In this document: positions 6,085 through 21,538 of the stretch, piece after piece
Layout of the letters: every line of letters starts with the position of its first letter
How positions within the stretch are numbered: the stretch's first letter is position 1
Origin: Pseudonocardia hierapolitana
GTDB lineage: Bacteria > Actinomycetota > Actinomycetes > Mycobacteriales > Pseudonocardiaceae
Direction: 5' to 3'
NCBI RefSeq assembly: GCF_007994075.1
Contig: NZ_VIWU01000001.1
Location: 124,001-188,000 of the forward strand
DNA: 64,000 nucleotides
Position numbers and translations under genes: made by a program
The notes under the pieces: model-generated
The model's input: the letters and a program-made list of their open reading frames with translations, nothing else
What the model was told of the DNA's origin: nothing
The model's database searches: none

Positions 6085-6195
6085 GTCGGTGGTGGGTGTG
6101 CCGCGCGAGGTCTGGCTCACCGCGAGGATCGCGGGTCACAGTGGCGGGACCGCCCCGGGTTCGCACCGGGTTCCCGCGCAGCCGGCCGAGCCTAA
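6085..6195 (-). promoter_or_regulatory. Cobalamin (B12) riboswitch in the cobH leader
   Basis: Read on the minus strand, the leader contains the hallmark core GGTCCCGCCACTGTGACCC, with GCCACTGTGA at 6136-6145. It is preceded by the GGGAACCCGGTGCGAACCCGG hairpin (6155-6176) and followed by the B12-box-like AGCCAGACCTCGC (6103-6118). These match the conserved J3-4, L4 and B12 box of adenosylcobalamin riboswitches. Between the B12 box and the cobH ribosome-binding site a GC-rich segment (6060-6090) can pair, in keeping with masking of the site when B12 is bound. Exact ends are approximate. Confidence 0.92.
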
Positions 6196-19380: not shown

Positions 19381-19433
19381 ATTCTGCGGGGCCGCCCCTC
19401 AGAGCTCAAGGGCGCCTCAGTGTCAGGCTGAGG

Positions 19434-19622
19434 GCTGCTGCTGTTGATCGGCAGCGGTTAGGGTCCGGCCCTGATCACGTGGTGACTCTCAAGGGCGCTG
19501 CCACCGTTGGTTGGCTTGCCGCAGAACTGTCGAGCGTGGTCAGGGTTCGGGCCGGCTGGCCTGACTTGATAGAAGCGTGGGCTAGACGCCATCCCCTCGA
19601 CTGAGGTGTGTCCGACCAGCCG
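19434..19622 (+). ncRNA. Putative IS110 bridge RNA
   Basis: Three hairpins can be drawn. The first is CTGCTG/CAGCGG near 19437-19457. The second is closed by CCCTGATCACG (19469-19479) and CGTGGTCAGGG (19535-19545). The third is closed by GGCTGG (19554-19559) and CCAGCC (19616-19621). Hairpin 2 carries CTCAAGGGCGC (19488-19498), identical to the left target flank 19405-19415, and GCCGCAG (19518-19524), complementary to the right target CTGCGGC (20731-20737). Hairpin 3 carries ATAGAAGC (19569-19576), identical to the right element end 20721-20728, and ACTGAG (19600-19605), complementary to the left end CTCAGT (19416-19421). This is the target-loop plus donor-loop plan of bridge RNAs. RNA ends are approximate. 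Confidence 0.75.
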
Positions 19623-19675
19623 ACCCGATCCGGATGCCTGTCTCCTGATCTGGAAGGAAGGACACCCGGACGTTC

Positions 19676-20719
19676 ATGGTGGTCATTGGGATCGATCCGC
19701 ACAAGCGGACCCACACCGCGGTCGCCGTCGACGAGGTGGGGCGCAAGCTGGGCCAGGTGACGGTCGCCTCCACCCCGGAGGGGTGGTTGCGGTTGTGGGC
19801 GTGGGCGGGCGGGTTTGGGCCGGACCGGCGGTGGGCGGTCGAGGACGGCCGCGGGGTGGCCGGGCGGCTGGTGCGCACCCTGATCGGGCACGGCGCGGCG
19901 GTGGTGTGGGTGCCGCCCAAGCTGATGGCCCAGAGCCGGGCCAGCGCGCGCACGCGCGGCAAGTCCGACCCGATCGACGCGCTGGCCATCGCCCGCGCCG
20001 CGCTGCGCGAGCCGGACTTGCCGGCCGCGCACCTGGATGAGGTGGCCGCTGATCTGCGGCTGCTGACCGACCGGCGCGAGCAGCTGGTCAAGTGGCGCAC
20101 CCAGACGATCAACCAGCTGCGCTGGCACCTGCACGACCTGGACCCCGGCCTGGACCCCGGCGCCGGGCGGTTGAACAGTGCCCGTCAGCTGGACCGGCTG
20201 ACCGCCGGGCTGGAGGCGCTGCCGGCGAGCGTGCGCCGCGACCTGGCGCTGGAGCTGGTCGGCGAGATCCGTCGGCTGCGCGAACAGATCCGCCGGTTGG
20301 ACAAGCAGCTGGGCGAGCTGGTCGTCCCGCTGGCCCCGACCCTGCTGGCCATCGTCGGGGTCAACGTGGTCACCGCCGCGAAGATCATCGGTGAGGTTGC
20401 TGGGATCTCCCGGTTCCGGTCCGCGGCGGCGTTTGCCATGCACGCCGGTGCCGCCCCGATCCCGGTCTGGAGTAGTAACCGGCCCCAGGTGCGGCTCAAC
20501 CGCGGCGGCAACCGGCAACTCAACGCCTGCCTGCATCGCATCGTCATCGCCCAGCTCAGCCACAAACCCGAGGCGCGGGCCTGGCGCGAACGCTGGACCC
20601 AGCGCCGACCCAACGCCACCGGCAAGGCGGCGCTGCGCGCCCTCAAACGCCACCTCGCCGACGTCGTCTACCACGCCCTGCTCACCGACCACCGCCGCCA
20701 ACTCCCAGCGACCGCTTGA
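19676..20719 (+). CDS. IS110-family transposase (DEDD recombinase)
   Basis: A 347-residue transposase. The N-terminal RuvC-like DEDD domain has VIGIDPHKRTHTAVAVDE (first Asp), VEDGRGVAGRLVR, and ARTRGKSDPIDALAIARAAL (last two Asp). The C-terminal Tnp domain (~205-320) has LLAIVGVNVVTAAKIIGEVAGISRF, AFAMHAGAAPIPVWSSN with the nucleophilic serine region, and GGNRQLNACLHRIVIAQL. Length and motifs are complete, so it looks active. It acts with a bridge RNA from its own left end to recombine the circular element with a CT-containing target. Confidence 0.95.
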   Translation: MVVIGIDPHKRTHTAVAVDEVGRKLGQVTVASTPEGWLRLWAWAGGFGPDRRWAVEDGRGVAGRLVRTLIGHGAAVVWVPPKLMAQSRASARTRGKSDPIDALAIARAALREPDLPAAHLDEVAADLRLLTDRREQLVKWRTQTINQLRWHLHDLDPGLDPGAGRLNSARQLDRLTAGLEALPASVRRDLALELVGEIRRLREQIRRLDKQLGELVVPLAPTLLAIVGVNVVTAAKIIGEVAGISRFRSAAAFAMHAGAAPIPVWSSNRPQVRLNRGGNRQLNACLHRIVIAQLSHKPEARAWRERWTQRRPNATGKAALRALKRHLADVVYHALLTDHRRQLPATA

Positions 20720-20955
20720 CATAGAAGCTTCTGCGGCGTCGCTCCGCGATCGCTGCGCGACCCTTGACCTCCGAGCCTCTGCGACCCCTCCGGGCAGCAC
20801 TACGCGGGCAGGCCGGGGGCCTGCCCGGAGGGCGCGCGGCGCCACCGAAGGCGGTCCCACGGCCAAGATCAAGGCCTCGTCGCGAAAACGGTCGAAAACG
20901 ACACGAGAACCCGCCGAACTGCCGATCACACCGCCCGTGGCCCTGGCACAGCCGA

Positions 20956-21023
20956 CTTCACACACCCAGTACGGACTTCACACAAGGCCGGCCTTGTGTG
21001 AAGTCGCCACTGGGTGTGTGAAG
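20956..21023. repeat. 68-bp near-perfect hairpin (34-bp arms)
   Basis: The arm CTTCACACACCCAGT, then GACTTCACACAAGGCC (20956-20989), is mirrored by GGCCTTGTGTGAAGTC, then ACTGGGTGTGTGAAG (20990-21023). Three mismatches fall in the middle and there is no loop at the centre. Outside it the pairing continues for about five more bases (CAGCC/GGCTG) after a one-base bulge. It lies between the two MITE-like copies; no gene is seen from 20853 to 21241. It could be a REP-type or cruciform element or a strong bidirectional terminator. Confidence 0.85.
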
Positions 21024-21214
21024 TGGCTGGGAGAGGGCCCGTGATCGGCCCGAGGTGTACATCAGCGTCTCCGCCGAGCCCGCGATGTGCTGATCGGAGC
21101 GATCTCCGCAACCGAGGCACCGCTCCCCCGCCCACGCGCCCCGTCGACCGGGTGCGTGGGCCGACACGGGGCGCGCGAGCACACCAGGTGCGTGACCGGC
21201 ACGGAGATCCACCA

Positions 21215-21538
21215 TCACGTGCCCGTGATACCGGCCTGCTGGCGGCGCCGCGCGCCCCACCGGGCAGGCCCCGGCCTGCCCGCACCGCATGCCCGAGGGG
21301 TCGCAGAGGCTCGCAGGTCAAGGGGCCGCGGAGCGGCTCGCGCAGCGACGCCGCAGGCGCCCTTGAGCTGGGAGGGGCGGCCCCGCACAATGCGCGGCGC
21401 CGCCAGGAGGCCCAGGACGGGCTCACCTGATGGACCGATCCACCGATCCTCCATCGGCGCGGCCACGAGCTCGGCCTCAGCACGCGAGTAGGCGACTACA
21501 CGCAGGTCGAGCAGCGCCGGCCCGTATCGAGACACCAC
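21215..21538 (-). CDS. Doubtful hypothetical protein running into a repeat
   Basis: A GTG at 21538 preceded by GGAGGG opens a 107-codon frame. The first ~39 residues (VSRYGPALLDLRVVAYSR, then AEAELVAAPMEDRWIG) look protein-like. The remainder is translated MITE-like repeat (21242-21401). It may be the front of a gene disrupted by the repeat. No family recognised. Confidence 0.2.
   Translation of the reverse strand: MVSRYGPALLDLRVVAYSRAEAELVAAPMEDRWIGPSGEPVLGLLAAPRIVRGRPSQLKGACGVAARAAPRPLDLRASATPRACGAGRPGPARWGARRRQQAGITGT
21242..21401. repeat. MITE-like repeat, copy 2 (uninterrupted, inverted)
   Basis: About 160 bp bounded by a 13-bp inverted repeat GGCGGCGCCGCGC and its inverse. On the minus strand it aligns with 19371-19417 joined to 20731-20843, and so shows the IS110 target before insertion. 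The intact target site is at 21349-21367 on the minus strand. Confidence 0.85.

Follow-up and report, generated by a model that had tools for sequence, protein, structure and literature searches.

An IS110-group insertion sequence of Pseudonocardia hierapolitana with a predicted bridge RNA matched to a dispersed palindromic repeat

Bridge RNAs have been predicted in 85.7% of IS110 elements (PMC11208160). The IS621 element of E. coli, as described in PMC11208160 and PMC11208158, has a long left end, a short right end and CT at its ends, and its RNA comprises a 5′ stem-loop, a target loop and a donor loop. In these accounts the left guide equals the left DNA half and the right guide is the complement of the right half, the core is paired in all four guide interactions, and the target is a palindromic repeat. 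A −35-like box in the right end and a −10-like box in the left end of IS621 form a promoter at the joined junction, a handshake pairing between RNA and donor has been described, and the second core base is almost invariably T, with T9 contacted by G63 of an EATG segment (PMC11208158). The IS1111 group, as presented in the seekRNA report (PMC11187229), likewise has a DEDD transposase and is RNA-guided, but carries its long non-coding region downstream, together with subterminal inverted repeats. ISPpu9, ISPpu10, ISPsy8, ISPa11 and other REP-targeting insertion sequences also enter extragenic palindromic repeats (PMC1525189).

The element reported here lies in a 64,000-nt stretch of the 8.86-Mb genome of Pseudonocardia hierapolitana (hereafter the window) and is an IS110-group insertion sequence with a predicted bridge RNA in its left end. 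On the forward strand, a left core CT (19416-19417) is followed by a 258-bp left end (LE, 19418-19675), a gene for an IS110 recombinase of 347 aa (19676-20719), an 11-bp right end (RE, 20720-20730) and a right core CT (20731-20732) that continues into the right target GCGGC (20731-20737 with the core). The layout is that of the IS110 group, with non-coding ends of 258 bp on the left and 11 bp on the right, as in IS621 and unlike the downstream arrangement of IS1111. Its palindromic target also resembles that of the REP-targeting insertion sequences, which occupy other hosts and other repeats and are likened here by description only.

The recombinase matches both Pfam families DEDD_Tnp_IS110 and Transposase_20 above curated cut-offs. 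Its PDB sequence matches are IS621 (E 1.5e-9) and ISCro4 (solved structure 9t56; E 4.9e-9), mainly over the C-terminal half, while the N-terminal stretch alone scored poorly (i-Evalue 2.2). The proposed catalytic residues D7, E56, D98 and D101 are spaced like D11, E60, D102 and D105 of IS621 and recur in nearly every one of 22 aligned proteins, among which L062 could not be aligned at the DEDD region and L087 has no N-terminus. The catalytic-serine region reads WSSN at roughly the expected place, its alignment to S241 being uncertain. Three relatives carry T or A near the expected serine (WTAN, WTGN and WAGN in L073, L060 and L061), and the genome of L073 (G148) nevertheless holds five closely matching copies.

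Four guide-like segments had been proposed for the left end, and all were confirmed letter for letter. The left target 11-mer CTCAAGGGCGC at 19405-19415 recurs exactly at 19488-19498, and the right target guide GCCGCAG (19518-19524) is the complement of CTGCGGC at 20731-20737. The left donor guide, the 8-mer ATAGAAGC at 19569-19576, recurs in the right end at 20721-20728, and the right donor guide ACTGAG (19600-19605) is the complement of CTCAGT at 19416-19421. The two bases AA that follow the right target guide (19525-19526) occupy the handshake-guide position and are complementary to donor TT at 20729-20730. We shortened the left target guide from the proposed 11 nt to the 10 nt TCAAGGGCGC at 19489-19498, since C19488 belongs to a scaffold GTGACTC common to relatives with other guides, and since the target has G rather than C at this position in one genomic copy (L004) and in five repeat-inserted copies of Amycolatopsis bartoniae. 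When the 258-nt left end was shuffled 20,000 times with its dinucleotides preserved, the left target segment occurred in 2 shuffles, the right target in 528, the left donor in 10 and the right donor in 2,748; at least two segments were found in 66 shuffles and all four in order in none. The case from this single sequence rests mostly on the left-target and left-donor matches, and the two short segments add little.

Folding the predicted RNA in parts gave a 5′ stem-loop (19434-19458; z −4.8) and a target-binding loop (19468-19546) that, folded alone, has a 13-bp closing stem (19468-19480 with 19534-19546; z −1.9), the internal loop of which holds both the left and the right target guide. The donor-binding loop hairpin (19553-19622) folded alone has a 7-bp closing stem (19553-19559 with 19616-19622; z −1.4). 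This hairpin is absent from the minimum-energy fold of all 258 nt (z −2.3), where the LE start pairs with the donor arm, and the RNAalifold consensus of 19 sequences likewise pairs these two regions. Before counting pairs we removed this outer helix and two short helices from the consensus, which was our own choice; the outer helix was dropped on the ground that the RNA should begin downstream of the LE start. Across the 19 left ends, 96.1% of cells in the 5′ stem (helix 1) and target-loop stem (helix 2) can pair, and 18 of 34 pairs changed on both sides, including 13 of the 19 in helix 2. The covariation score of the stems, a structure itself derived from the same 19 left ends, was 0.546; sliding the partners by one to three columns gave at most 0.123, and shuffling gave a mean of 0.293. 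By eye, a stem enclosing the donor region is present in 24 of 26 folded left ends (not in L062 and L082); L060 was not matched. Of the two hairpins originally predicted, with stems of 11 and 6 bp, the target loop is backed by covariation with a stem of 13 bp, and the donor loop, with 7 bp and no place in the full-length fold, is the weaker. Rfam gave no match within the element at gathering scores, and a relaxed threshold returned six weak matches to unrelated families far below those scores, none of them a bridge-RNA family.

A genome search recovered four copies of the element with identical left ends and unchanged guides: L001 and L002 agree over 1,315 bp, L003 has 7 differences, and the gene of L004 is shorter by 12 bp. 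The original prediction had pointed to copies at unrelated sites as one finding that would speak against it; all four instead stand at TCAAGGGCGC-CT-GCGGCGTCGC, in different copies of one dispersed repeat whose halves at the target are, by eye, inverted repeats. The left target of the window copy (19406-19415, + strand) lies in this palindromic repeat. The exact empty motif TCAAGGGCGCNNNCGGCGTCGC occurs 34 times in the genome, always with CT and followed by G in 14 cases, A in 8, T in 7 and C in 5, and allowing up to two mismatches yields 54 occurrences, against 4 for a reversed control pattern. Of the 34 exact empty motifs, 14 are arranged as seven inverted pairs, with about 590-640 bp between partners, within a longer non-coding unit. 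In the window, such a unit is split at one end by the insertion, and the inverted other end (21345-21366, − strand) is an unoccupied second copy of the target. The interval 19405-21366 can be described as a dispersed repeat unit of about 650 bp with inverted palindromic ends, a central palindrome and no obvious gene.

Because all four copies share one repeat, they are by themselves weak evidence for a choice made by the guide. The right guide reads G, and all four insertions are at CTG sites, which make up 18 of the 38 occupied and exact empty sites; right-guide specificity could explain this choice, although the post hoc p of about 0.04 is only suggestive. A. bartoniae provides a natural control. 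Its recombinase is 73% identical and its left guide is the same, whereas its right guide reads T instead of G, and the 33 exact empty motifs of its genome are followed by T in 28 cases and by G in 5. Five of the six copies fetched from this species lie in the same repeat family, with L026 among them occupying a CTCGG variant. The remaining copy, L024, is inserted outside the repeat at CCAAGGGCG-CT-TCGGC (also given as CACCAAGGGCG-CT-TCGGC), a site that resembles the repeat target only at the guide-matching bases. What the six A. bartoniae sites have in common is thus the match to the guides and not membership of the repeat. Unoccupied exact CAAGGGCGCTNCGGC was found neither in the A. bartoniae genome nor in that of P. 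hierapolitana.

Guides and targets were then compared across relatives, collected at E 1e-80 from genus genomes (7 of 62) and family genomes (25 of 390) and at 1e-85 from order-drawn genomes (21 of 397), with the window's own genome included in these overlapping sets and ten named loci added. Removing duplicates (L059, L071, L072, L088, L089) from the 83 relative loci (L001-L004, L019-L028, L059-L127) left 78, of which 71 were parsed as sites. Five dropped out for an unrecognised left-end start (L019, L077, L091, L095, L105) and two for an unreadable left guide (L081, L114); L061 and L064 were corrected by hand, and L084 and L100, which share flanks and are possibly one duplicated site, were both kept. 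Right-guide counts cover 63 of the 71 sites, leaving aside seven group C sites whose right guide was unparsed and L028, which has no right end.

Over the 71 sites (36 guide classes), a set tilted towards positive cases because parsing needed the scaffold pattern in the left end, the left guide matched its own flank at 8.37 of 10 positions, compared with 4.73 when cross-paired; the best of four offsets was allowed for own and cross-paired flanks alike, and 0 of 20,000 permutations reached the observed value. The right guide matched at 5.11 of 6 positions versus 2.44 (63 sites, 17 classes; 0/20,000). Within the closest group (22 sites, 7 classes for each guide), the values were 8.77 versus 5.26 on the left (6/20,000) and 5.33 versus 2.94 on the right (2/20,000). 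In group B alone, the left guide gave 7.77 versus 5.97 (1/20,000) and the right guide a modest 5.51 versus 3.91 (828/20,000).

The donor side follows the same pattern. Left donor guides track the right end (ATAGAAG with ATAGAAG, ATAGGAG with ATAGGAG), being identical in 63 of 68 cases and one mismatch away in the other 5, a count that is partly built in because the search patterns fixed four of the seven letters and left three free. Right donor guides, read by eye, vary along with the left end (CTCAGT, CTTAGT, GTCAAT); the pattern used for them is imperfect, with some rows shifted, none for L103, and plainly wrong entries for L109 and L125. Donor-guide mismatches affect both guides in L062 and the right donor guide only in L065, L070 and L080. 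At the handshake position, the dinucleotide that follows the right target guide complements the final two bases of the donor in 60 of 63 sites (AA/TT in 25, TT/AA in 35), the search pattern having limited the guide side and not the donor side. The proposal that the left end encodes a bridge RNA is supported by the covariation of guides with flanks, by donor guides that track the element ends (partly by eye) and by the L024 insertion.

Joining of the ends in a circle would bring a −35-like TTGACA (20716-20721), which overlaps the stop codon, to a distance of 17 bp from a −10-like CAGGCT (19424-19429), a predicted junction promoter with the same division of boxes between right and left end as in IS621. 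In joined junctions of the element and its relatives, for which TTGACA was part of the search pattern, the second hexamer has A at position 2 and T at position 6 in 64 of 70. Scanning the linear element for promoters gave no hit; the proposed promoter exists only with the ends joined, and its function in this element is suggested by the IS621 parallel.

Taken together, these observations make it very probable, as far as sequence comparison can carry the argument, that this is an autonomous IS110 element whose left-end bridge RNA directs the recombinase to the palindromic repeat, with exchange at CT. The left end would encode an RNA with target and donor loops. The recombinase would use the donor loop (ATAGAAGC, ACTGAG) to hold the joined ends of a circular form, while the target loop (TCAAGGGCGC, GCCGCAG) would hold the target, and the two would recombine at CT. 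The sequence addressed by the guide would be the dispersed palindromic repeat, of which the genome has dozens of copies. As in IS621, the RNA would be transcribed from the circle junction and the complex would then assemble, cleave and exchange strands.

Two other accounts of the shared target were weighed. If a repeat carrying the insertion had been copied around the genome, or the insertion sequence had moved from one repeat copy to another by homologous recombination, the common flank would say nothing of guidance. That one repeat family holds all four P. hierapolitana copies fits such a history, but the repeat variants to the left and right of the insertion differ among these copies, 34 exact copies stand empty, the L024 insertion matches its guides although it is not in the repeat, and covariation in 36 guide classes does not follow from copying; we regard this account as highly improbable. 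The site specificity of IS110 elements was recognised before the RNA was discovered, and it is conceivable on that ground that the recombinase protein itself reads the target and that the left-end matches are remnants or a regulatory leader. Against this stand guide loops that change together with their targets although the closest group has recombinases 67-100% identical to that of the window, and the placement of the guides in an internal loop whose stem itself covaries, so that a protein-read target has very little probability. The preferred account, guidance by a bridge RNA, draws on what the comparisons establish at sequence level: the matches, the repeated use of the target, guides that covary with targets and with element ends, and a conserved target-loop fold.

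The register of the left guide departs from that of IS621, and the "complete" guide-target agreement first claimed was to this extent overstated. The guide is offset by +1 in all four P. hierapolitana copies and in five of the six from A. bartoniae, with 10 of 10 matches versus 4 at offset 0. Unlike IS621, the window element leaves the core T unpaired by the left target guide. Its right target guide pairs CT. Offset 0, in which the last base of the guide falls on the core C, is found in Prauserella muralis, G060, G148, G169, G176, G206, G216 and L024. An offset above 0 fits best in 46 of 71 sites, and two guide pairs each occur with two offsets. We consider it rather probable that the left guide pairs over 10 bases and stops before the core, where a U-G wobble and then a mismatch follow; since it would pair only up to the core, the right guide and the donor would determine where the core lies. 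For the window's own element, a CC core in the shifted register was rejected, because the right junctions CTT-CT-GCGGC have a single C (left junctions, GCGC-CT-CAGTG).

The one-base shift may also be only apparent, the IS621 register being kept with one target base bulged beside the core. The guide TCAAGGGCG-CT set against the target TCAAGGGCG-C-CT lends itself to this view, as does L024, where the same guide stands in the unshifted register, whereas the more distant relatives with offsets of +2 and +3 would need larger bulges. We give such a bulge somewhat less than an even chance.

A further difference concerns the second core base of the target, which is A, C or G in four related lineages, unlike IS621, and which in the window's own element is part of an ordinary CT core. 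In G148 the motif CGAAAGCCACNTTCG occurs 654 times, with CA in all matches listed; 36 motifs in P. muralis are all CC, 37 in G176 all CA, and 60 in G060 all CG. Left junctions of the inserted copies in G148, P. muralis, G176 and G060 relatives nonetheless read CT, and of the 71 left junctions of the element and its relatives, 70 have T as their second base. The G060 copy has a right junction of GG and not CG. At the right junction, 21 of 22 closest-group sites have C as the first core base; of the 25 sites in the order-level set, 11 have T. The right guide tracks the second core base, with a class-mean match of 0.83 versus 0.25 cross-paired (0/20,000); agreement was found in 49 of 63 sites, and copies in G148, with guide G, account for five of the 14 exceptions.

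In 20 of the 22 aligned recombinases, that of the window included, EDGR or EDCR replaces the EATG of IS621 after the second catalytic residue; P. muralis has EHGR, and L062 is not alignable there. By spacing, and in a weakly aligned stretch, G63 of IS621 corresponds to R, and that this R is the cause of freedom at the second core base is a guess.

For this actinobacterial IS110 clade we find evenly balanced the view, taken as a whole, that the target need not share the CT of the element. Any base would then be allowed at target position 9 and be read by the right target guide, and the element would give T on the left and its own base, C in the closest group, on the right, which would place the exchange point between the two core bases. 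The left guide would lie 0 to 3 bases from the IS621 register, with the cut position set by the right guide and the donor. If this holds, target choice would be freer than under the IS621 rule of an almost invariant T9.

The original prediction presented the locus as a new natural bridge-RNA/recombinase pair. It is clearly a new member, but novelty in itself was overstated, since bridge RNAs are already predicted in most IS110 elements. It is best seen as a new example of a known RNA-guided system, and its clade, to judge by the sequences, looks like a variant with an elastic register and a free second core base. Searches of open-access literature, read at the level of titles and abstract openings, brought up nothing on this element, on variable second core bases in natural targets of IS110 elements or on offsets of the left guide. 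For the discovery of further bridge recombinases, the pair is useful as a natural example that a GC-rich host carries in several copies and whose target is mapped, with 34 sites still empty; the clade bears on the open practical question of how fixed core and guide register are. The published boundary pipeline took sequences repeated near element ends as cores and kept hits with concordant cores (PMC11208160); under that rule, as described, elements with differing junction dinucleotides, as in several relatives, could be missed.

Some observations concern the wider set of relatives. Those of about 50-58% identity (L063-L069, L078-L080, L096-L099, L101-L127) often have a left guide of the form TAnnnT and a right guide NCATG, and their 10-nt right end often finishes in TAGGAG plus three bases. 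In groups B and D, ATG or GTG lies 2-3 nt past the 10-nt right end in 27 of 41 sites (raw count). The relatives of about 50-58% identity may insert between promoter and start codon, supplying a ribosome-binding site. The more distant L082 and L084-L087 are, by eye, inserted near the end of an IS3-type orfA, and their guides resemble orfA sequence. A second IS110-like family (L005-L018) occupies seven places in the P. hierapolitana genome outside the window. Its DEDD and Transposase_20 matches (Pfam on one pair) fall in two separate stretches or frames, reflecting either a split recombinase or an old frameshift that spread. Elsewhere in the window, a cobalamin riboswitch lies at 6109-6175 on the − strand.
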